Assembly (NCBI RefSeq): GCF_963675165.1
Contig: NC_087389.1
Location: 406,001 to 470,000, forward strand
DNA: 64,000 nt
Direction of reading: 5' to 3'
Source of the DNA: Halichondria panicea
Lineage: Eukaryota; Porifera; Demospongiae; Suberitida; Halichondriidae
Position 1 is the stretch's first letter. Every line of letters starts with the position of its first letter. This document shows, in pieces, positions 2,547 through 61,406 of this stretch. A program made the translations under genes and the position numbers. A model generated the notes under the pieces. It saw nothing but the letters and a program-made list of their open reading frames with translations. It was not told the DNA's origin and ran no database searches.

Positions 2547-5451
2547 ATGGGAGCTTCTTCGAGCAAAAGGAGTGTTAAAAAAGAAGTTCGACCAAATCTA
2601 GATCTACCTTGGATTCTGCAAACTTCCGGTAATAGCGGAAGCGATAGTGCCCCTGGAACTCCAACTAATACTACAATGGCCGACAAGTCAGACGAAGTTT
2701 TTGAGAATGCTTGCTACGTTTTTGTAGTGTTTGGAGCCTCTGTGAGTTGACTACTGATATCTTGAGCTTCTGGATATAATTATTGCATTTAGTCTACTGT
2801 TGCTGATATCACTACCATATAAACCAAGTCCATAAACACAACACTCTGTTATGGTTCAGAGTTCACATATAAACTATGCACACACACACAGGGTGATCTT
2901 GCCAAGAAGAAGATCTACCCCACTCTATGGTAAGTACAGTATTATATAATAATGTTAACTCATACGTCCATGTTCTACAGGCGACTCTACCGAGACAATC
3001 TGTTTCCCCCGGGTACCAAGATTGTGGGCTATGCTCGCTCCAGTCTCACTATAGACAACATCAAAGAGAAATCTCAGCAATACCTGAAGGTGAGTGCACG
3101 TCTCCACACTACACGAGTTGTATACCATGACACTCCAGAGTAAACCAGAGGAGGCTGCCAAGGTGGATGCTTTCTGGGCTGTCAACTCGTACGTCAAGGG
3201 CTCCTACGATAAACAGGAGGATTTTGATAATCTGAACCGAGAGATTGGAAAGATAGAGAATGGGCTTATTGCAAGGCGACTGTTTTATCTTGCCCTCCCC
3301 CCGTCAGTGTTTGCCCCCGTCACCAGCTGCATCAAGGCAGCCTGTATGAGCCCCAAGTAAGAACACTGTGTGTTGAGTGTACAGTCATTGGAGCATTGTC
3401 CACTTGTATACTAGTAAATTCGTAATATCTATGGACTGGTGTACGTGTAAAGCATTGTGCAGTGTATATAATTATTATTGTGTGGTTGTTTTATTCCCAG
3501 TGGCTGGACTCGCGTGATTGTTGAGAAGCCATTTGGCAAAGATTCAGAGAGCTCTGCTACGCTGAGTCGGCATCTTGCTGGCCTCTTCAAGGAGGAGGAA
3601 ATCTATCGTATTGATCACTACCTCGGCAAAGAGATGGTCCAGAACCTACTGCTCCTCAGGTGAGTAAACGGTAACTTTTTATACAGCATAATTATGTAGT
3701 CTCAATAACTTAAAAGGATGTTCCTGTTTCCTTGTGTATTGTGAGTTAGTTTACATCGTAGCTTTATCCCAGTCAGCGTGTTACGTCCTTTCTCTTACTA
3801 CAGGTTTGCAAACTCCATGTTCCAGCCTCTCTGGAACCGCAACTCCATTGCGAATGTCACCATCACTTTCAAGGAGCCATTTGGCACTCAAGGACGTGGC
3901 GGCTACTTCGATGAGTTTGGGATGATTCGTGATGTAATGCAGAACCACCTCCTTCAAGTGCTCTGTCTCGCTGCTATGGAGAAGCCCGTGTCCACCGGGT
4001 CGGAGGATATGAGGGACGAAAAGGTGAGTGGAAGAATTTAGAGGTAGATACTATATAAACTACCTGTGTCTTAAAGCCATAATTATTTTGACTGTTTGAT
4101 GCGCCTTTGATAATACTATATATAATCATGATTTGCTCCTTTCAATATTCATTCAGCTACTTGTGTTACATTGTGTGTTTAGTTACATGCCCTATAGAAA
4201 TATTGTTGCTGATAATGAACTGTTCCCCCAGGTGAAGGTATTGCGTAGCATCAGTCCCATTACCCGAGACAACATTATTCTGGGCCAATACGCGGGTGAC
4301 CCTAATGGAGAGGGAGATGCCAAACTGAGTTACCTGGACGATGAGACAGTACCCAAAGGCTCCATCACTCCCACCTACGCCATGGCTGCCCTCTTCATTA
4401 AAAATGAACGCTGGGACGGAGTGCCCTTCATTGTCAAGTGTGGAAAAGGTAAGACACTATGCTGTGAGCTTTATACTGTATACAGTGCTCTCTGCCATTT
4501 AGAAGTATACTTTTCGCAAGCACTAAATTCCTGGGTAGACATGGTAATTTTTTACCTTCTATCATAACTAATCATTATTGCTTGTTGCCACACAGCCCTC
4601 AACGAGCGTAAGGCTGAAGTGCGTATCCAGTTTCGTGATGTGCCTGGTGACATCTTTGATGGCAAGTGTCGTCGCAATGAGTTGGTGATTCGTCTGCAAC
4701 CTGACGAGGCTATGTACCTCAAGACAATGACCAAGCAACCAGGAATGTCCTTTGAACCCCTCGAGAGTGAACTGGACCTCACTTATGCAGCTCGCTATGC
4801 GGTGAGAGTGATTTACATGACATTTGCACAGTGCATGCACTTTATAGTTAGGTAAAGATCATTGATTTAATTTACCAACTGCATACTGTGTGCCAATAAT
4901 GAGACTATCATCCCCCTATACCTATATACTGTGTGTGCAGGATATCCATCTCCCTGATGCCTACGAGAGATTGATTCTAGATGTGTTCAATGGGTCCCAG
5001 GCTCAGTTTGTGAGAACGTAAGCAGCTACTATATTATTGTGTATTAGAGTCAATGCCGCAAGCTACCCCTGTGGTCCGGTCTCCATCCCGAGGATTGCTG
5101 TGTATCATAAATTATACTCCTCTCTCCTTCAGTGATGAGCTGGCCGAGGCTTGGAGGATCTTCACTCCCATTCTACACCAGATTGAGGCAGACAAGATCG
5201 CACCAATCAAATACAGATATGGATCGTAAGTGTAGCAACAACCATGTTACTTAATTTATAATATGGAATAAAGATGGAGCACTTTCATACTCCATGTCTA
5301 CAGTGTGTTGTCAAAGCACTCAACCAAAGTTTACCATTATTTCTGTTTTTTTTTCTCCAGACGAGGACCTAAGGAGGCTGATGAGTTTGCGGCAAAGCTG
5401 GGATTCAAGTACTCGACCACGTACCAGTGGCGACCCAGCTCCTCCTCCTGA
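2547..5451 (+). CDS. G6PD: Glucose-6-phosphate 1-dehydrogenase
   Basis: This enzyme oxidises glucose 6-phosphate with NADP+ in the first step of the pentose phosphate pathway. Eleven exons: 2547-2741, 2892-2929, 2981-3089, 3139-3356, 3501-3659, 3804-4023, 4232-4448, 4596-4801, 4941-5017, 5133-5225, 5361-5451; 540 residues. Seen are the nucleotide-binding start [14 protein letters not shown], the catalytic and substrate motif [20 protein letters not shown], and the end [14 protein letters not shown]. Human G6PD is about 515 residues; here the family homology begins near residue 44 at a second Met (2676), so the first Met adds 43 residues. That extension starts MGASSSKR, which fits an N-myristoylation signal (Gly2, Ser6, then basic). 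Translation could begin at either Met. Identity is very sure; the start is less so. Confidence 0.95.
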
Positions 5452-7769: not shown

Positions 7770-9248
7770 ATGTCGGAGGACACGCCCCTTATACAAGTCA
7801 ACGATGGTGAGGAGGAGGCAGTAAACGATGAAGAGAAGATTGACTTCAAGCAGATGGTCTGGTTCCACGGGAAGGCAAGTGCTCCAACCCTAGCTCTCTG
7901 CCACACCATGTTTCCTAGGAGCTGTGTCGGCCATTTCTATTGTATAGCTAGCTGTTGAATTAATGCATGGAGGCCGGTCGTCGTGTGATGTTTGTGTGTC
8001 CCTTTATCCCCCTCTCTCCCTGTGTACCATTATCCCATACTCTCTCTCACTGTGTACCATTATCCCATACTCTCTCTCCCTGTGTACCATTATCCCATAC
8101 TCTCTCTCCCTGTGTACCATTATCCCATACTCTCCCTCCCTGTGTACCATTATCCCATACTCTCCCTCCCTGTGTACCATTATCCCATACTCTCCCTCCC
8201 TGTGTACCATTATCCCATACTCTCCCTCCCTGTGTACCATTATCCCATACTCTCTCTCCCTGTGTACCATTATCCCATATTCTCCCTCCCTGTGTACCAT
8301 TATCCCATACTCTCCCTCCCTGTGTACCATTATCCCATACTCTCCCTCCCTGTGTACCATTATCCCATACTCTCTCTCCCTGTGTACCATTACCATTATC
8401 CCATACTCTCCCTCTCTGTGTACCATTATCCCATACTCTCCCTCCCTGTGTACTATTATCCCATACTCTCTCTCCCTGTGTACCATTATCCCATACTCTC
8501 CCTCCCTGTGTACCATTATCCCATACTCTCCCTCCCTGTGCACCATTATCCCATACTCTCTCTCCCTGTGTACCATTATCCCATACTCTCTCTCCCTGTG
8601 TACCATTATCCCATACTCTCTCTCTCTGTGTACCATTATCCCATACTCTCTCTCCCTGTGTACCATTATCCCATACTCTCTCTCCCTGTGCAGGAGCTGG
8701 TCAGCAAGAAGTCCAGTAGTCTGGTTCGTCTCGGTGTGGGGAAGGAGGGTGTGTACAAGCTGGACAGTAAGACAGCCAAGGTACACACACACTGTGGATA
8801 TATAATTATATATAAATGTACAGACAGACTAAACATTTCATGTACTGGCTTGTAGTATGCCAACCCCCATTGTGGCACTTATACACTATAATAGTGTGTC
8901 TTGACCTTCTGTCTTCCTTTGTGTGGTGTGATTGTGGTGTAATATGAGCGTGTGCTAACTGACCACGAATACTGTCATCCAATTAACCAGTCTCTAACTA
9001 TAACCAGTCTCTAACTAGTCGCTTGTACCGCTCTGTGAGTGTTCCCCTGTACTGTAAGATGAGCAGTGCGTAACCTTACCAACAGCTGTCTCCGTTGTGT
9101 CACAGCTAGCATATGGTCCTGAGCTTTGTATTAACTGTGCCAAGTTCTGTGGGTGTTCTATATCTCCCCCCATTCAGATTCTATATACCATTGCTATACT
9201 ATCCATGCTCTTCGTTCCATATTCCGCATTCCACGTTTTACAACATGC

Positions 9249-14791: not shown

Positions 14792-16019
14792 ACCAGTTAC
14801 CATTGTAACGCTTGCAAACAATTGAATTACTTGTTTTTTTAATCACGGTTTCGTTAGAAATTTGCTAGAGTCAATTTTCATGTGACTAGGAACACAATGA
14901 GACAACAATCATGAGTTGTTTGTGTAGTAGGTTCTTGTCCTTGTGTATTTTCATACTTCTTTGTATTAATTGTATATATGTACTTGTCTTGAGATCACTG
15001 TATGGGGGTCTAAATGACTACTCTCAGACAATGAATTTATTGTAGTCATGTGAGGAAATGTGGGGGTGGGGCTGTTTAGCAATGAATGCTGCCAAGGGAG
15101 TATAAAAGAAGCTTGTACTATGGTTGCACCAAAGATCAAAGGCTTCAGTTGTAGTTTATACTACTTATACAACCTGTCTGACCACAGCCATGGTATATGG
15201 CTGTTATACCCTAGTGTATAACAGCCATATACTGTGGCTTGTGGTCAAACTACATGTACAGCTAGAACTGAATACAGTATCCCACCTTTGCAATAAAATT
15301 GGGTTTTTTGACACACTGTTTCAATTAAAACAATGACACACTAGATCTACTCAATTCAATCAATATTAGAGCTAGAGAGAATTCAATACAAAAAAGGGTC
15401 TACTAATGTTTGAGTCAACATAAAAAGAGCCAAGTTCGAGCGATGAATAGTTCCAAAAAGGAGGCAAATTTGGAAGAACTCCGTGAACCGAACGATACTG
15501 GTTTGTTTGTGTTGCTTTTTTTCAACTTTCAACATTAGTTGTCACAACCTGCTTATTGCATTGCTGCATGGGACCAGGAGCAGTAAGAAGGGTCCAGACT
15601 GCCAAGTGTTTCTCAGACTAAAGAGACTGCACTGCACTGGGCCAGTACAGTAGGCTTGTGGAATGATATTTTCGGGTACATTTGCACTCTTTGTAGACAA
15701 GTAGCACCAGTGTACTTTCTTGAAGTGCCTTCTATAAAGATGCAGAAACACAGCCTTCACAATTGCTTGCTTGAATCATAGACGCTTGCTTGAATCAGCC
15801 ATCGCGCTTTTTAAAAAGATAGCAAATTCATTGCATAGCTATAGCAACAGTGACGTCAAATAGTAGTTATAAGCATATTCATTGAAGAAGCATGACAGGA
15901 AGTAGCTAAACATAGTAGTACAGTTCTAAACATAGTACAAGCCAGTTAAACTAACTATAACTTAGTGCATGCATGCTGTTATTGCAATTGCCAGGCGTTA
16001 AGTTGTCTTTTTATCTATT
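14792..16019. other. Intergenic interval with a strong hairpin
   Basis: No coding exon was recognised. The segment 15180-15245 is a near-perfect palindrome: GACCACAGCCATGGTATATG pairs with the reverse complement ending in GGCTTGTGGTC, with a loop of about five bases. It may be a small foldback transposon. The rest is AT-rich and presumably holds the 3' UTR of the FERM gene and the promoter of the next gene. Confidence 0.5.
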
Positions 16020-18510
16020 ATGGGAGTCCAAGGCCTGCTCAAGTTCCTCCGCACCAACCCCAAGACAAGACTGCAGAACAAATCTTTGGCTGGACTTGCT
16101 GAGAAGAAACGACAAGAATCTGGAAAGCGTGCAAAAATTGTCTGTGATTTTCTCAGTGTTTTGCTTTGGCTATTAAAACTTTTTCATGAAGCAAAAATTA
16201 CAGAAGGTAGCTATAAAAAGGAGAGCTATTTATTCGGAGGAGATTACGTGGAGTATTCCAACAGATTTATTGCACTATTGCGAGCACTGCTATGTTGTCA
16301 TGCTGAGCCCATTCTTTTTGTTGATGGATCCCGAGGTTCTTCACTGGATGATTTGGAAATCAAAATGTTGACTTTAGAAAGTAGAGAATATGAGCGCTTG
16401 AAGTTTGTTGAGAAATGTGTGCAGTATTGCAATTACGATCCTACGTTAGACCCCGAAGATGTCAGGAAATGGAGGAAGTATCCACTCATTATCTTACACG
16501 TTCTTATGGCGGTGAGAAAAGAAGTTCCTGATGTTCAGATAATTCATTGTGAAAGTGAAGCCGATTCTGAAATGGCTGATTATGCACGAATGCATCCGGA
16601 GGTGTGTGGTATTCTGTCCACTGACACAGACATGGTTATGATGAGGAGGTGTACTATTATTCATTGCAAGTTCTTCGATCGTGAAGACATCCTCGGCTTA
16701 CGAAAACCAACTTTCAATGAGATGCCGCCAGATGTAATCTGTGATTTGATAACACCCAGGACTCTAGCCAACGCACTCGAAATTGAAGTGGAGAATCTCA
16801 AAATTATATCAATAATTTGTGGGAATGATTACACAAGATCGTACAAAATTTACCGACAAATGGATTTGGGGTACCCTTTCATAAGACACGCTGCTAAGTG
16901 GTTGGCTGATTATTCAGGAGTATCTCAGCACTTCTTTGAAATTCCAACATTTCAGGCCATTTTATTGCAATCCCCGGAATTCTTTGATGCAGTTCAGCAT
17001 ACGTACGAAGCATATGGAGAAGCGGAATCATTTGTTGAAATGTGCAAAACAACAAAAGTTGTTCGTGGTGATATTCAAAGACACCCCAAAGTGCCATCTC
17101 GGCCATTGTCCGAATCTCCTGTGGTAGACATGGTACGCCGTGGCATCAAAGAAGGGAGGATATCACGTAGACTCTCATCTGTCGCACATAGCGGAATTCT
17201 TTGGCGAACCAAGTATGTGGAAGGTCAAACATCGAGCACTCAAACCTTTGTATGTGCATATGATTTGACGTTTCTCTTGAGAAGAGTGATCTACATGCTG
17301 CTTGGCCTTACAAAGGTTCGTGAATACGGCAATTTCACAGAAAGTATTTCTGTTGCGGTGAGGTTTAAAGATTTCAAATTTACTTGTGACAGCTCTTCAT
17401 TACTGCTTGAAATTCGTGAAATGCAAGACCTGAGCAAAGTGCTATATCTCATTCCCTTCATTGTGAAAGCAAAATCACTAAGGCATTTGAGACGCCTACC
17501 ATTTGGCAGTGCCACTATCCCTACAGGCTACAATCCACATGTAGCAAGCCAACTAAGACCGGTTTTACTTTGTGCCTCACTTCTCCATGCATGCTCTCTC
17601 AAAGATGACTCCAGTACTTTCGAAAATGTTGAGGTTGTAAAGAATGTATTCCTTGCTACATGCTTGATGAGTGCCTGTGAGAATCCTCCCCTTGAAGTGT
17701 TTGAGAGACCTACTGTCGATTCGATGAATATGAATGCAGGACTTGCGTGTATTATCCACCATGTGTACGAACTTGCCTCTCTGTTTGATATGCTCGATAT
17801 TTTGTCGCCTCCTGGATGTTGCTATCAACCTTCTGCACTTGTGGCCTTCCATCAAGTAGCTATAGCTGGTAAAGACAGAGTGAAAACAAAACGGAGAACG
17901 GACAGACATTTTGTTTCGCTTCATACAACATACACTCATCTGATACAGCTAAGAAAATTTCTGGAGCTCAAAAAAGTTCTTCGAGAATTTGATCAAAAAT
18001 GTGAAAATGATCAATTGGATGCAATGGACCTGGTTCGCTTGGCTAAGGCTTTCTATGACGTTCTTGGACAATTCCACACTAGTGCGGCAGACCTTGCAGG
18101 GAAGATAGAGGAATTACAGGCTAAAGTGATTACAAAGGAGCTGCCATCCAAGACAAAAGGTAAGACCAACTGGCAAGAGCTTGCTAATTAGTCTAGATCT
18201 GTACATATTATGTGTATAGACATAATACTTTTTTCTGTATTACAGGAAAGTCTAAAGCATCAAAGCAGACAAAGTCCGAGCCTCGGGCTTCTAAAAAGGA
18301 GATGCCTAAGCCTAAGCCCTTAGGTAAGTGTACATTGTTTTTTATGTGTGGCTGTAAGTAAATATCTTTATCCCATTAGTGAAACCATTCATGAAAGACA
18401 TGGAACATATTGAAACAGACATGATACAGTTACAACAATTGTTGAGTACAAAAGTGGCTGTAGAAGATCTACAAGAAATGGCAATAGCTGAACATACAAC
18501 TGAACAATAA
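16020..18510 (+). CDS. ASTE1: Asteroid homologue 1-like PIN/FEN nuclease
   Basis: Exons 16020-18159, 18246-18323, 18380-18510; 782 residues, with more than 90% of the coding sequence in the first exon. It begins MGVQGLLKFL, the N-terminus typical of FEN1/XPG-type nucleases in which Gly2 lies near the active site. Acidic residues expected of the PIN-like fold are present: VCDFLS, GGDY, FVDGS, CESEADSEMADYA, STDTDMVMM and GNDYT. The spacing and the phrases GGDY, PLII...VQ...CESEAD and GILSTDTD resemble asteroid/ASTE1 more than FAM120 proteins. ASTE1 acts as a structure-specific nuclease in human double-strand-break repair; that role is inherited by homology only. The last two small exons encode a Lys/Ser/Pro-rich link and a helical tail. 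It converges with the LYRM7-like gene, with 36 bp between stops. Confidence 0.75.
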
Positions 18511-43025: not shown

Positions 43026-43298
43026 TCATTTTTTCTCCTTCTTGGCAGGGGTAGCTTTTTTTGCCTCTTTCTCTGGCTTCACCTTTTGCACCAGGGAGGA
43101 AAAAATGATTCATAATAAAAGGTGCAAATGTTCACACACTGATGATAGACTCACGTCCTTTTGTCCCTTTTTTTCAGCAGGTTTTTTTTCAGCAGGTTTC
43201 TTTTCAGCAGATTTCTTCGTATCACCTACACAAAAAAAATTGATGAACACAGTACAGGTAGGCACCAATGGCTGTTCACTCTCACCCTTTCCAGACAT
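43026..43298 (-). CDS. Tiny lysine-rich protein, three exons
   Basis: Exons on the minus strand: 43286-43298, 43155-43225, 43026-43082; 46 residues. The product starts MSGKGDTKKSAEKK, contains three (P/S)AEKK units in a row, and ends PAKKEKK. More than a third of residues are Lys. The composition resembles HMGN proteins or histone H1 tails, but I see no HMGN nucleosome-binding core, so only a nucleic-acid-binding or nucleolar role can be guessed. First and second introns have normal GTGAG donors. The last acceptor is the unusual GCAAAAG, the first AG after the pyrimidine run. It is head to head with Twinkle, 575 bp away. The exon with AEKK units could also be simple-sequence expansion. Confidence 0.5.
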
Positions 43299-43873: not shown

Positions 43874-46800
43874 ATGATGAGGTGAGAGATTTATTTGTAG
43901 ATCTACTATCACTCTCCTTACAGTGTGTTCAGAAGGGTGGAGCAAGCTTGGGTGCAAGTGGTCTCTTTCAGACAGACTAGAGCATTGCAGACAGTCAGTC
44001 GCACCAAAATACAGTCTTTACTCGACTCGAAGAAGTACTCGTACAAGTTAGGCCAGTCTTCGTTTGTTCTCCAGTGTCCGTTCTGCAAGAGAGGAGATGG
44101 AGCCTCGAGCAGCAGCAGCACTCTGGGAAGTATGTTTGTTAACTATAACACTGGCGGCGTGGTGTGCAAGCCCTGTGCAGTGAGAGGTGGGCGGGAATAA
44201 TGGCCGCTTGCGTAAATTATGTATCCTCCACTGTAGGAACGTGGAGTAACTTCCTGGAGTGGTCAACGGAGGGGAAATCCCCCACAGCACCCGTCTCTTG
44301 TGACACTGACTCAGCAGTAGTAGACGGAGTAACAACCGCTACAAAGGTTCCTACTGAGCATGCTCAGAAGGTTTGGTCGGGCACGAGGAAGTGGGAGGAG
44401 TCGTCTACCGAGACAACGGACAGACTGCGAGAGATGTTTGGAATTGAGGTGAGTAATTGCTGCAACAGTGATCCCATGGTGATCTTGTTCTCTGTGTGTT
44501 AGGTGTTAACCAACCCTGCTCTGGAGAAGTACCAAGTTCATACTGCTACCTCAGCGGTACGTTATCTGTGATAAATTTACACTACTTGTTTTTCAATGCT
44601 CAACAAAATGTGTGCCTCTAGTTTGTATAATTGTTATTGTTCTGTATCCACTCATACAGTCCTCCAGTTTGCTGTCAGACTCTGCGCTGCCGTGTGTGGC
44701 GTTTCCATGGTACCACGGCAAGGACCTGGTGAAAGTGAGGTTAGAGACAATACCTCCCACAGAGGAGCTCCAATCATCAGGGGAGGGTGTATGGGGGGTC
44801 TTCGGATGGGGTACTGTGGAACCAGCAAGCAGGGAGGTGAGTGATGTAATCTTCCCCAAATTTGATTTTCCTTTGTTATTATTATTGTAGATAGTGATTG
44901 CTGGTGGGGAGTTGGACGCCATTGCAATTCACCAGAGCACGGGACTACCAGCTGTTGTTCTTCCCAGTGACATCACTAAGCTACCCTCCAAAGTAAGTAT
45001 TTCATACATGTAAGAACCTATGGTCGTTTCTAAACGGAACTTTTTCTTGCAGTTTCTGTCTGAGTTCGATCAGTTCAAGAAAATCAACTTGTGGTTGGGC
45101 AGCTCTGGGCCTGCCAAGCACACTGCCACACACCTGGCTAACCAACTCGGGCTGAAGAGATGCTATCTGGTTAGGTAAGAAGTGAGACTCCATCTTATCG
45201 AGAATCCGTATATACGTATATTTTCCTCCAGCTCTCAAGAGAGAGGTCGACCACTGCCCACGGCTTTGGGGGCTCTCTCTAAGGAGGGAGATTTGGCAGC
45301 CATTATTTCACGATCCAAGCGATTTGCTCACGACCAAATCTTCAGCTTCAACCAGGTAAGTACCACCAATAAAAGATTGAGTGTTGTGCGTGAGTATTAG
45401 ACCTTGTGCCTTGTAGCTGCGTGGTGATGTGTACGGGGAATTTAGCAACAGAGAGATGGTAGCAGGAGTGAAGTGGAGACGGTTCCCTCAGTTGACCTCT
45501 TCTCTCAAAGGTCATCGCTCGGGGGAACTAACTGTTCTTACTGGACCCACTGGACGAGGCAAGACCACTCTGCTCGCTGAGATGTCCCTGGACCTGTGCT
45601 TACAGGGGGTACGCTATGCAGGGGGATGTATTTGTGTACTGCACAGCTATAATGTGTACTTTACTTTCTATCTTTGTTCTTGCAGGTGTCTACACTGTGG
45701 GGAAGTTTTGAGATCAAAAATGTTCGATTGGCAAAGACACTTCTAAAACAGTATTCTGGGTAGGCAGTAAATTATTGCTATACATGTCTTAACAATATTG
45801 AAGTTACTGATTCAGTGTTACACTGTATGCACTGTGTTGCAGAGTGGACATAGAGAGGCACTTGCACGACTATGACAGCTGGGCTGACAAGTTCCAACAT
45901 CTCCCTCTCTACTTCATGGGGTTCTATGGCTCTGCTGACATCAGCACTGTCATTGAGGTATGCAGTACATGTACTGTCCTCTATGTAGCCACTGCTTTAA
46001 TCAGGAACTGTCCTCTATGTAGCCACTGCTTTAATCAGGAACTGTCCTCTATGTAGCCACTGCTTTAATCAGGAACTGTCCTCTATGTAGCCACTGCTTT
46101 AATCAGGAACTGTCCTCTATGTAGCCACTGCTTTAATCAGGAACTGTCCTCTATGTAGCCACTGCTTTAATCAGGAACTGTCCTCTATGTAGCCACTGCT
46201 TTAATCAGGAACTGTCCTCTATGTAGCCACTGCTTTAATCAGGAACTGTCCTCTATGTAGCCACTGCTTTAATCAGGAACTGTCCTCTATGTAGCCACTG
46301 CTTTAATCAGGAACTGTCCTCTATGTAGCCACTGCTTTAATCAGGAACTGTCCTCTATGTAGCCACTGCTTTAATCAGGAACTGTCCTCTATGTAGCCAC
46401 TGCTTTAATCAGGAACTGTCCTCTATGTAGCCACTGCTTTAATCAGGAACTGTCCTCTATGTAGCCACTGCTTTAATCAGGAACTGTCCTCTATGTAGCC
46501 ACTGCTTTAATCAGGAACTGTCCTCTATGTAGCCACTGCTTTAATCAGGAACTGTCCTCTATGTAGCCACTGCTTTAATCAGGAACTGTCCTCTATGTAG
46601 CCACTGCTTTAATCAGGAACTGTCCTCTATGTAGCCACTGCTTTAATCAGGAACTGTCCTCTATGTAGCCACTGCTTTGATCAGGAACTGTCCTCTATGT
46701 AGCCACTGCTTTGATCAGGAACTGTCCTCTATGTAGCCACTGCTTTGATCAGGAACTGTCCTCTATGTAGCCACTGCTTTGATCAGGAACTGTCCTCTAT

Positions 46801-49377
46801 GTAGCCACTGCTTTGATCAGGAACTGTCCTCTATGTAGCCACTGCTTTGATCAGGAACTGTCCTCTATGTAGCCACTGCTTTAATCAGGAACTGTCCTCT
46901 ATGTAGCCACTGCTTTAATCAGGAACTGTCCTCTATGTAGCCACTGCTTTAATCAGGAACTGTCCTCTATGTAGCCACTGCTTTAATCAGGAACTGTCCT
47001 CTATGTAGCCACTGCTTTAATCAGGAACTGTCCTCTATGTAGCCACTGCTTTAATCAGGAACTGTCCTCTATGTAGCCACTGCTTTAATCAGGAACTGTC
47101 CTCTATGTAGCCACTGCTTTAATCAGGAACTGTCCTCTATGTAGCCACTGCTTTGATTAGGAACTGTCCTCTATGTAGCCACTGCTTTAATCAGGAACTG
47201 TCCTCTATGTAGCCACTGCTTTAATCAGGAACTGTCCTCTATGTAGCCACTGCTTTAATCAGGAACTGTCCTCTATGTAGCCACTGCTTTAATCAGGAAC
47301 TGTCCTCTATGTAGCCACTGCTTTAATCAGGAACTGTCCTCTATGTAGCCACTGCTTTAATCAGGAACTGTCCTCTATGTAGCCACTGCTTTAATCAGGA
47401 ACTGTCCTCTATGTAGCCACTGCTTTGATTAGGAACTGTCCTCTATGTAGCCACTGCTTTAATCAGGAACTGTCCTCTATGTAGCGAACTGTCCTCTATG
47501 TAGCCACTGCTTTAATCAGGAACTGTCCTCTATGTAGCCACTGCTTTAATCAGGAACTGTCCTCTATGTAGCCACTGCTTTAATCAGGAACTGTCCTCTA
47601 TGTAGCCACTGCTTTAATCAGGAACTGTCCTCTATGTAGCCACTGCTTTAATCAGGAACTGTCCTCTATGTAGCCACTGCTTTAATCAGGAACTGTCCTC
47701 TATGTAGCCACTGCTTTAATCAGGAACTGTCCTCTATGTAGCCACTGCTTTAATCAGGAACTGTCCTCTATGTAGCCACTGCTTTGATTAGGAACGTCCG
47801 TTTGCAAAAGTAAAACATTCATTTTGTAGCTCTAACTATACACCTAATATGTCCATTGCTCCTCCCCTCCCCAGACAATGTCCCACGCTGTGTATGCTCA
47901 CAATATCCATTGCTCCTCCCCTCCCCAGACAATGTCCCACGCTGTGTATGCTCACAATATCCATTGCTCCTCCCCTCCCCAGACAATGTCCCACGCTGTG
48001 TATGCTCACAATATCCATTGCTCCTCCCCTCCCCAGACAATGTCCCACGCTGTGTATGCTCACAATATCCATTGCTCCTCCCCTCCCCAGACAATGTCCC
48101 ACGCTGTGTATGCTCACAATATCCATTGCTCCTCCCCTCCCCAGACAATGTCCCACGCTGTGTATGCTCACAACATCCAGCACGTGATAGTGGACAACCT
48201 TCAGTTCATGCTGGGAAGTACCAACATCTTGGATACATATTCTGCCCAAAACCAGGCCATTGGAGCACTGAGGAGGTTTGCCTCAGCTGAAGATGTGCAT
48301 GTCACTGTGGTGATTCATCCCAGGAAGGTGAAGGGGGGGTACTCTGTCTGTGTATGTCCCACTGTTGCATTGTAGTGTGTGTTCTCTCATTATACTATTT
48401 GACTGCACATCATGTGTGCATTCATATATACTGCTGTTCAGTGTTTGTGAACTCAGTGTCATATCTGCTATGTACCACCACCACCACAGTCCATCTGATT
48501 ATCATTATTTTGTGCAGGAGGATGACAACAACCCACTTACCACTGCCTCCATATTTGGCACTGCCAAGGCAGCCCAAGAGGCGGACAATGTCATCATTCT
48601 GCAGTGCCCTCACGGCAAAGACAAATACATACAGGTACAAAGGTTGTGTAGGAGTGGTCTAATTATGTGTTTATTGTGTTCAGATCAAAGATACATACAT
48701 GTACGAATGACAAGTTGATCTAGCTCGTTTACACGCAAAGCGTTTTGTCAGGAAGCGCTTTCAAATGCTTTGATTGAATGTTAAGCGTAAACAGGGCCCA
48801 TTTTACTGGCTCTTTGATGCATTTTGTACTACTAGCTGTTTTACAACAGTTTTATTTCTCCCTCCAGGTGACTAAGAACCGTTTCGATGGCGACCTCGGT
48901 ATGGTACCTCTGTCCTGGGACAAAGAGAGTTGTACGATGTCTGGCCACTTCAACCGCCCTCCTCCACAAACTGTTGCTGACAACAAAACTATCACTGCTT
49001 CTCCAGAATTACCGTCATCGCCACACCCTCAAACTGTTAAGAAGCCTGCTTTTGGTGTTTATCGGCCTCAAGGCTCAAAACTGATTGGACGAGTTCAGAG
49101 TACACCTGGAAAGGGTACGAATAGCAGCTCCCCCTTGATCAATCAACCAGGACGGGTTCAGAGTACACCTTTGAAGGGTACAAATAGCGGCTCCCCCTTG
49201 ATCAATCAACCAGGACAGGTTCAGAGTACACCTTTAAAGGGTACAAATAGCGGCTCCCCCTTGATCAATCAACTAGGACGGCTTCAGAGTACACCTTTAA
49301 AGGGTACGAATAGCGGCTCCCCCTTGATCAATCAAGCAAGCCCCGCATCATACGATCCATCACGCCGAACTGTTTGA
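43874..49377 (+). CDS. TWNK: Twinkle, mitochondrial replicative DNA helicase
   Basis: Exons 43874-43881, 43924-44186, 44237-44448, 44503-44556, 44660-44836, 44891-44992, 45053-45174, 45232-45355, 45417-45608, 45686-45759, 45843-45957, 48145-48327, 48518-48634, 48868-49377; 750 residues in one frame (human 684). Twinkle unwinds mtDNA 5'-3' as a hexamer. The first 8-bp coding exon plus a 42-bp intron gives an Arg-rich start, [14 protein letters not shown], a likely mitochondrial presequence. A primase-like half has [14 protein letters not shown] and [12 protein letters not shown]. The RecA-type helicase has Walker [14 protein letters not shown], then [15 protein letters not shown], Walker [11 protein letters not shown], and VTVVIHPRK. 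Residues about 670-745 form a tail of four roughly 20-residue repeats ([17 protein letters not shown]). The exon at 48145 has five in-frame tandem acceptors before it. Confidence 0.93.
45973..47793. repeat. 34-bp minisatellite in a Twinkle intron, about 53 copies
   Basis: The unit runs from GAACTGTCCTCTATGTAGCC to CTTTAATCAG and recurs head to tail for 1.8 kb. Variants cluster: six consecutive TTGATCAG units at about 46679-46860, TTGATTAG at about 47155, 47430 and 47785, and a truncated unit at 47485. There is no unique spacer between copies. The array fills most of the intron that starts at 45958. Confidence 0.97.
47850..48174 (+). repeat. 54-bp tandem repeat carrying Twinkle splice acceptors
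   Basis: Each unit contains the pyrimidine tract and acceptor CCTCCCCTCCCCAG followed by the first 30 bases of the exon (ACAATGTCCCACGCTGTGTA onward). Acceptor-exon junctions fall at 47875, 47929, 47983, 48037, 48091 and 48145. The unit is 54 bp, a multiple of three, and reads [18 protein letters not shown] without a stop. Only the last copy runs on into the conserved helicase sequence. Confidence 0.95.
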
Positions 49378-59650: not shown

Positions 59651-61087
59651 TCAAAAAACACAAAGGGCAGCACCAGGCCCAGGCTTTGTAACAAACAAAC
59701 TAGCGTCCAAGTTCTCCATTCCGTTGGAATGACCCTTATAGTACTCCTCTTGAAGTGTCTCCATCAGCTCTTTGCACTTATCCTCTCTCACCAGCGACAC
59801 TGTACACCCACCCCAGCCAGCACCAGTCAATCGCGAGCCCAGGCTTCCAGCAGACTTGGCAATAGCCACAATTTGATCCAGCTCAGGACAACTGCACTCA
59901 TAGAGATCACGACAGCTTGCATGACTATCATCCATGAGCTTACCCAACTTCACGGCAACGTTCTCTCCATTTGGATCGTTAGCAATGTCCTTGAATTGGT
60001 AGACTCGACTAGCTTCATTGTAGACATGCTCGACTCTGTAGTAAAGCTGGAACTCCTCAATCGACTTTGTTTGCTCGTTTAGAAACTCCTTCCAAAGATA
60101 TTGTTTGTCCACGTCCATGATGCTACATAAATCGGATTGGGTGTAGGGATCGGAACGCAAATGCTTTGTCACCACTTTCGTCATTATCTCCTTCAGCTCA
60201 TGACCTGAAGCATACTCAAGCGTTAGGAGCTTCCTCACTTCTTCCCAACGCTTCACTCCAAGCTGGTAGGCCATCACAAGAGAGGCCAGGCGACATTCAG
60301 CAACTCGAACATTAAAGCACGAAGCGGCAGTAGCCTTCTCTGCAGGGACAAGAGTATTGGCTATCACAAATACACAGCCTTTTGGGATCTTCACTTCAGT
60401 TGTACGAATCGGATCGAATTCAATCATCATAGCTTTTCCTTGCTCGCCTAGGAAGCTGATGGCCTGGTCCATTCCACCTCCTTCGGTACCAATGTAGCGC
60501 TCACACTTGGCACACATTTCAGCAAAAAAAGCCTTGGACGGTAAAGCTATTTTGTTAGCATGAGCAGTAGCCAGGGCAGAGCAACAAACAAGAGCAGAAG
60601 AACTCGATAAACCAGATGCAGGGGGAATGTTTCCATCGACTAGCAAATCCATTCCAGTGAGGTTATCAATATTGCAATAGTCTTCGGCACCTGCAATACC
60701 ACACAGAATGTAGTCGTACCACATCATTCCTCTTTTGGTGATATTCAGCTTTCTGTTTATGTTCGACTGATGGTCAAGATACTTGGGGTTGGTGTTGGAA
60801 ATGTTGATGACGTCTTCGTTTCGCGTACGACATGCGATTGCAATATCCAGCTCAATGGCCATGGGTAGTACAGCATAGCCAGAGTAGTCAATATGCTCTC
60901 CAATGATGTTGACCCGACCAGGAGCTCGAGCAATGAACTGTGGCTCAGTTCCATACTTGGTCTTGAATGCTTGCACAAGGTTTTGGTATCGTTTGGCGTT
61001 TGTCTCACTGCCCTGGCTTAATTCATCGAGGGATGAGAAGACAGGGGGTGGGTCACTGGACGGCTTCTTGGCAGGAGTCTCAGCCAT
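59651..61087 (-). CDS. GALK2: N-acetylgalactosamine kinase (GHMP family), intronless
   Basis: A single uninterrupted frame of 478 residues (human GALK2 458). GALK2 phosphorylates GalNAc at the anomeric position for salvage. The sugar-binding motif RAPGRVNIIGEHIDYSGYAVLPMA is near residue 60. The ATP-binding motif 2 is IPPASGLSSSSALVC, followed by RYIGTEGGGMDQAISFL, which has the Asp that acts as base, and motif 3 is SRLTGAGWGGCTVSL. The phrases CSCPELDQ and SHASCRDLYECS favour GALK2 over GALK1. I chose ATG 61087 (MAETPAKK) because it resembles the human start; an in-frame ATG at 61114 would add nine residues. The lack of introns is unusual among intron-rich neighbours and may reflect retroposition or intron loss. 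It lies behind LRGUK and ahead of SLMAP on the same strand. Confidence 0.95.
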   Translation of the reverse strand: MAETPAKKPSSDPPPVFSSLDELSQGSETNAKRYQNLVQAFKTKYGTEPQFIARAPGRVNIIGEHIDYSGYAVLPMAIELDIAIACRTRNEDVINISNTNPKYLDHQSNINRKLNITKRGMMWYDYILCGIAGAEDYCNIDNLTGMDLLVDGNIPPASGLSSSSALVCCSALATAHANKIALPSKAFFAEMCAKCERYIGTEGGGMDQAISFLGEQGKAMMIEFDPIRTTEVKIPKGCVFVIANTLVPAEKATAASCFNVRVAECRLASLVMAYQLGVKRWEEVRKLLTLEYASGHELKEIMTKVVTKHLRSDPYTQSDLCSIMDVDKQYLWKEFLNEQTKSIEEFQLYYRVEHVYNEASRVYQFKDIANDPNGENVAVKLGKLMDDSHASCRDLYECSCPELDQIVAIAKSAGSLGSRLTGAGWGGCTVSLVREDKCKELMETLQEEYYKGHSNGMENLDASLFVTKPGPGAALCVF

Positions 61088-61406
61088 CTCTCTGGATGCA
61101 TGTATGGGTGTCATATATAATGTGTCAGTATAGAAATCAATAGTCTATAGCTAGCATGCATTCACACATAGCAGCATCATAAAGCTTTTTCTTGTACCAA
61201 CCTGCAAACTATATTGGGGACAGGGAGATCTGTTTATAGTATAAAGGGCATGAAGGGGTGTCAGCTTTCAGTCCAGTTCCTTTGTGTCAAAAAGTGGGAG
61301 GAGGTAGATAGACTAGTAACTGTATTCATAGTGAACCATAAAATTAATGTCCATAAAAACACAAGTGATACATTTGCTTTTCATAATGCACAGCCCTAAT
61401 ATAATG

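Follow-up and report, generated by a model that had tools for sequence, protein, structure and literature searches.

In the closest described case, an RdRp gene of potato, a two-copy duplication over an intron-exon boundary is reported to have become a new intron, with RNA-seq support for the resulting splicing (PMC4974935). Several published rules bear on the choice among neighboring 3' splice sites. One account holds that the first AG downstream of the branch point is used (PMC1431707). Another, drawing on human data, describes the upstream, intron-proximal 3' splice site as the winner in short introns, whereas human genes with a long upstream and a short downstream intron are described as behaving as if under exon definition (PMC9225289). 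Modeling of human Twinkle, as reported, suggests that I367, in the linker of the adjacent subunit, sits in a pocket formed by Y508 and that V507 likely interacts with the neighboring linker; both residues are disease sites, and the A359T variant is classed as a linker change in the same source (PMC7231222). Here, we describe a locus in the sponge Halichondria panicea in which these lines meet, namely, a real tandem duplication that has multiplied a 3' splice-site region to six copies within a conserved and apparently single-copy Twinkle gene; the published precedent has two copies.

The Twinkle gene and its genomic setting

The window, a 64,000-nucleotide stretch of DNA to which all positions refer unless otherwise noted, lies on a 6.57-Mb contig (C13) of a eukaryotic genome assembly of 131 Mb in 39 contigs. 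On its plus strand, at 43874..49377, we built by hand a coding model of 14 exons, whose start codon is uncertain, with GT-AG introns and a frame that is open throughout, giving a protein of 750 aa when the last acceptor of exon 12 is used. The original prediction had assigned this gene to Twinkle (TWNK), and the assignment stands: the model protein retrieves the Twinkle structures in the PDB (8e2l, E = 9.8e-100; 7t8b, E = 3.1e-94), with far weaker matches to T7-type helicases, and among Pfam domains, AAA_25 and DnaB_C score above the cutoff, with AAA_22 slightly under it. A Walker A motif (GPTGRGKT at residue 397) and a Walker B motif (VIVDN at residue 495) lie within the open 14-exon frame. 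On sequence grounds, the locus is an animal-like Twinkle, a member of the SF4 mitochondrial replicative helicase family.

When the helicase part was searched against the 131-Mb genome, all six matches fell in this gene, so no second Twinkle was found. A profile search of the unspliced genome with Pfam DnaB_C (PF03796) returned no match, presumably because the gene is divided into short exons; the Twinkle protein query did match. Exon 11 (45843..45957, plus strand) ends in phase 0 at GAG|GTATGC, and intron 11 follows. Elsewhere in the gene, the 12 introns measure 42 to 233 nt, the one 3' of exon 12 being 190 nt long. The last exon carries a 63-bp in-frame coding array (49087..49335, plus strand) of four copies, each encoding 21 aa of the protein's C-terminal tail; it is the third minisatellite in the gene.

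A 54-bp array across the intron 11-exon 12 boundary

TRF reported a tandem array at 47852-48179 (plus strand, 328 bp in total) with a period of 54, 6.1 copies, a 99% match, and a score of 649, that is, a minisatellite in the usual sense of head-to-tail units of some 10 to 100 bp. It straddles the junction of intron 11 and exon 12 of the Twinkle gene, and each of its six units has the composition TCCATTGCTCCTCCCCTCCCCAG|ACAATGTCCCACGCTGTGTATGCTCACAATA, with 23 intron bases (the pyrimidine tract and CAG) followed by 31 exon bases. The TRF boundaries and the junction positions confirm the claim of a 54-bp repeat with acceptors every 54 bp from 47875 to 48145; the unit had been described as the tract, the CAG, and the first 30 exon bases, which holds for the tract and the CAG, with the exon part now refined to 31 bases. 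Units 1 to 5 are identical, unit 6 differs by a single base (AATA to AACA), and the tetranucleotide TCCA stands at both ends of the array (47852-47855 and 48176-48179). Taken from the sequence, such near identity indicates recent expansion or homogenization.

A 25-base pattern spanning the junction occurs six times genome-wide with up to three mismatches, every time in the 54-bp array, and the same pattern reversed occurs nowhere in the genome. The exact 35-base junction sequence had no match in collections of genome contigs and viral contigs, from which the genome of the window itself is possibly excluded. Five identical copies adjoining a 1.8-kb minisatellite are the kind of sequence in which an assembly error might inflate or otherwise falsify the copy number; we consider such an error very unlikely here, given that the array is merely 328 bp on a contig of 6.57 Mb and that its last unit carries a variant of its own.

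The array had also been called very unusual. We surveyed 234 kb of the 131-Mb genome (the window and 17 stretches of 10 kb) with TRF and obtained 53 non-overlapping rows with periods of 20 to 300, in which the 34-bp array of intron 11 counts as two. Judged on their repeat units, 2 of these 53 arrays have acceptor-like units, and the one other than the 54-bp array (4905-5046 of the sampled stretch L013) proved to be a minus-strand coding repeat. Under the looser criterion of pyrimidine-rich units, the count rises to 8 of 53, and one more of these (8012-8690) abuts an apparent acceptor, on the intron side only. The claim of rarity is only modestly supported by the survey; a two-copy case has been published in potato (PMC4974935). 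Beyond that case, the open-licence papers listed in our searches, judged by title and the start of the abstract, included no minisatellite or duplication carrying acceptors.

Six in-frame acceptors and their predicted products

The six acceptors, each reading AG|ACAATG (47875, 47929, 47983, 48037, 48091, and 48145), face one shared donor after exon 11. All of them have the same 23 intron-side bases and the same 29 exon bases flanking the junction, so that a single donor is offered six AGs with identical pyrimidine tracts; acceptors 2 to 6 share far more upstream sequence with each other because the bases preceding them are the previous copy. The longest version of exon 12, from the first acceptor (47875..48327, plus strand), measures 453 bp and includes five extra 18-aa units; the next starts at acceptor 2 (47929..48327), further versions start at acceptors 3 to 5, and that from the last acceptor (48145..48327) measures 183 bp and includes the Walker B strand. 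All six versions, from 453 down to 183 bases, are multiples of 3, in phase 0, and open, and the expectation that a phase-0 upstream exon and a stop-free unit would allow an intact protein from each acceptor is thus borne out. The predicted products are 750, 768, 786, 804, 822, and 840 aa, depending on the acceptor, and Twinkle may accordingly be made in up to six lengths.

The insert consists of zero to five copies of the 18-residue unit placed after residue 481; residues 482 to 494 (13 residues) then lead to VIVDN at 495, in agreement with the claim that the copies stand just before Walker B. The alignment of the 48145 product with both solved Twinkles (8e2l and 7t8b) is gap-free across the junction, and for this reason we take the form without an insert to be of the ancestral length. 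Because the units arose by duplication, the original segment is restored in full by the first copy, and the last continues into the Walker B strand as before; the insert can thus be viewed as units added between that segment and Walker B.

From the general architecture of RecA-type folds, we take the repeated segment before Walker B to be a helix. On the assumption that the numbering of 7t8b is that of the human protein, which the residue types fit, human V507 and Y508 align with the A and H of HAVYAHNI in the repeated segment; neither residue is conserved in the sponge segment in this alignment. The process most plausibly affected by extra copies would be ring assembly, and the longer forms may be harmful, since contact of residues in this segment with the neighboring subunit is suggested by the human model (PMC7231222).

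Origin of the array and the meaning of its frame

To place the preserved frame against chance, we enumerated 3,690 distinct single duplications across the Twinkle acceptor, with 20 to 60 intron bases and 1 to 120 exon bases. Microhomology of at least 4 bp accompanies 18 of the 3,690, the one with TCCA included. The duplications that are in frame number 1,213, and those both in frame and open number 295 (8.0%); in the class with 20 to 25 intron bases, 183 of 574 (32%) are in frame, and all of them are open. With a chance of 8 to 32%, the openness of the array supports translated use of the upstream acceptors at most about 3- to 12-fold, and we regard the preserved frame as mild evidence that these acceptors are or were used. 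The period as such is unremarkable in this genome, since 31 of the 53 TRF rows in the 234 kb have periods divisible by 3.

Splice signals and the choice of acceptor

The 17-nt tract common to the six acceptors has a pyrimidine fraction of 0.88, a value above those of the gene's 12 remaining acceptors (0.59 to 0.82), and all six junctions read CAG|AC. For the first acceptor, two branch-site candidates lie in 47830..47849 (plus strand), CTCTAAC (A at 47835, -40) and ACCTAAT (A at 47847, -28), proposed from a match to the consensus only. Acceptors 2 to 6 each have TGCTCAC at -29, a fit to yUnAy, and at all six acceptors no AG intervenes between each yUnAy candidate and its acceptor. The U2 hexamer duplex energies are -2.2 (CTCTAAC) and -1.2 (ACCTAAT) kcal/mol at acceptor 1 versus -1.0 kcal/mol for TGCTCAC at acceptors 2 to 6; the best U2 pairing at acceptor 1 (ACTATAC at -35, -2.7 kcal/mol) is not at a yUnAy site. 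An AG-free yUnAy site is present in the scanned range of 3 of the 12 other Twinkle introns, and its absence from the remaining 9 means that the motif has little predictive value in this gene.

Intron 11 extends over 1,917 nt to the first acceptor and 2,187 nt to the last, a length due to a minisatellite that fills it with about 54 copies of a 34-bp unit (45973..47799, plus strand; two TRF rows of 44.5 and 9.3 copies). This array, which the original prediction did not mention, affects how the locus is to be read; by arithmetic, the intron up to 47874 would measure 90 bp if the array were absent. The minisatellite holds 54 occurrences of TATGTAG and 44 of TTTAATCAG, so that dozens of weak acceptor-like AGs lie in intron 11 upstream of the 54-bp array.

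The original prediction had offered two readings, a length-variable helicase or a tolerated array in which only the last acceptor works. Published rules on acceptor choice, as far as the sources used here set them out, conflict when applied to exon 12. The combination of a long upstream intron (1,917 to 2,187 nt) and a short downstream intron (190 nt) places it in the class that resembles exon definition in human genes, which favors 48145 (PMC9225289), and an intron of 1.9 kb could leave the last acceptor as the sole one in use. The other five copies would then be silent intron, the protein would have its ancestral length, and no longer form would duplicate the segment thought to contact the next subunit (PMC7231222). 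We consider exclusive use of 48145 rather unlikely: acceptors 1 to 5 have a tract and an AG identical to those of 48145, the branch-site candidates of acceptor 1 pair better with U2, and a silent array would have had no need to remain in frame and open, a state with a chance of 8 to 32%.

The first-AG rule (PMC1431707) and the intron-proximal preference (PMC9225289) instead favor 47875, where the CTAAC and CTAAT branch candidates are followed by AG-free sequence up to the acceptor, and the sizes of the 12 other introns (42 to 233 nt) suggest that this gene is spliced by intron definition. Dominance of 47875, with an 840-aa helicase bearing five extra units as the main product, nevertheless seems to us less likely again, in that it would lengthen the only Twinkle found by 90 residues ahead of Walker B and that the 1.8-kb minisatellite should weaken the intron-proximal preference (PMC9225289).

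Each unit further contains a donor-like GTATGC (47892..47897, plus strand, repeated at 47946, 48000, 48054, 48108, and 48162), which is identical to the six bases that open intron 11 at its true donor. Together with the next acceptor, it could in principle excise 37-nt introns and leave 17-nt pieces, ACAATGTCCCACGCTGT, in the manner of the potato RdRp gene, where a like duplication over an intron-exon boundary is reported to have recruited a donor from the exon (PMC4974935). We judge such intron gain highly improbable. By energy estimate, this best candidate for a recruited donor (TGT|GTATGC) forms a U1 duplex of only -0.5 kcal/mol versus -4.6 to -11.6 kcal/mol for the 13 modeled donors of the gene and looks too weak; a 37-nt intron would be shorter than the smallest Twinkle intron (42 nt), and every 17-nt exon piece would shift the frame.

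Proposed explanation and significance

The reading that we favor, with a probability of roughly 0.55, is a recent, TCCA-seeded tandem expansion that kept the frame and is tolerated, in which more than one acceptor is used and 48145 gives the helicase of ancestral length. The expansion would have begun as a duplication between a pair of TCCA tetranucleotides that took in the entire 3' splice-site region of intron 11 together with 31 bases from the start of exon 12, making every 54-bp copy a complete candidate acceptor. With no in-frame stop in the unit, a full-length protein would result from any of them. If, as we infer, splicing draws on more than one acceptor, the 48145 product would supply a helicase of the ancestral length, and longer products with one to five extra helix-plus-loop units would be made and at least tolerated. 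This tolerance would be due to the fact that every acceptor keeps the frame. The array is more likely neutral or slightly costly than an evolved regulator, and it is probably the outcome of a recent copying error that is tolerated.

A more elaborate proposal would see the 750- to 840-aa ladder as regulated or variable among individuals, with zero to five extra subunit-contact helices tuning ring assembly and the length of the 34-bp array deciding whether the locus is spliced by intron definition, which selects the first acceptor, or by exon definition, which selects the last. We regard it as very improbable, and nothing found here speaks specifically for an adaptive, length-tuned helicase.

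With their tract, AG, and exon start in common, at a fixed spacing and all in frame, the six acceptors amount to a natural competition series for 3' splice-site choice, which bears on the role of order, distance, and branch site. The array also illustrates how a conserved gene, apparently present once, can gain coding sequence from a minisatellite with its frame intact, and it is relevant to whether a ring helicase can accommodate additional helices ahead of Walker B.

Other features of the window and genome

The pyrimidine-rich minisatellite at 8012-8690 consists of 22.4 copies of a 30-bp unit, CTCTCTCCCTGTGTACCATTATCCCATACT, and ends exactly at the apparent acceptor GTGCAG|GAGCTGG; no AG dinucleotide begins within 8005-8691, and the exon would start at 8694. 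The stretch 3' of this array has one frame open to a GT and no Pfam match at an E value of 0.001. A 15-bp array of three copies at 43171-43217, with CAGCAG after runs of T, appears acceptor-like on the plus strand; we rejected it since, by eye, the minus strand encodes a KKPAE-type coding repeat that runs to a donor-like GTGAGT site.

On the minus strand, an open frame of 497 aa (59654-61144) contains the galactokinase family domains GalKase_gal_bdg and GHMP kinases N and C and is apparently intronless, versus 13 introns in Twinkle. A single open frame of 729 aa (16002-18188, plus strand) has no Pfam match at an E value of 0.001; by eye, we take it to resemble a 5'-3' exonuclease of the XRN/asteroid-like type. 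Part of a glucose-6-phosphate dehydrogenase (G6PD_C, E = 3.4e-20) is encoded in an open frame at 4100-4567 (plus strand). Elsewhere in the assembly, the only match to COX1 is a 64-residue piece with two TGA codons on an 18-Mb contig (C1:5280527-5280718), which is probably nuclear mitochondrial DNA.

Comparison with known systems

As in the potato RdRp gene, so far as that report describes it, the duplicated segment carries a putative branch site and a pyrimidine tract and extends past the 3' splice site into the first part of the exon (here, 23 intron and 31 exon bases), and the upstream intron holds another tandem duplication (PMC4974935). The two differ in that Twinkle has six copies rather than two and in that a cryptic GTAAG donor led to a new intron in potato, whereas the donor in Twinkle looks weak and alternative in-frame acceptors are to be expected (PMC4974935). 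The in vitro assays of Reed and Maniatis, as cited in PMC9225289, likewise had similar acceptors compete for one donor; the competition there was constructed, whereas Twinkle offers a natural series of six within a coding gene, regularly spaced at 54 nt. NAGNAG acceptors, as described in PMC3250501, also give in-frame isoforms via neighboring acceptors but consist of two AGs 3 nt apart; the Twinkle acceptors, 54 nt apart and with a separate tract each, are not of this type. Closest in the protein is the known in-frame duplication in the linker region of Twinkle, which concerns the same helicase and a linker that is the reported partner of the V507/Y508 contact. That duplication is fixed and coding and is reported to give rise to mtDNA deletions in cells and mice, whereas the sponge array would be optional via splicing and lies before Walker B.
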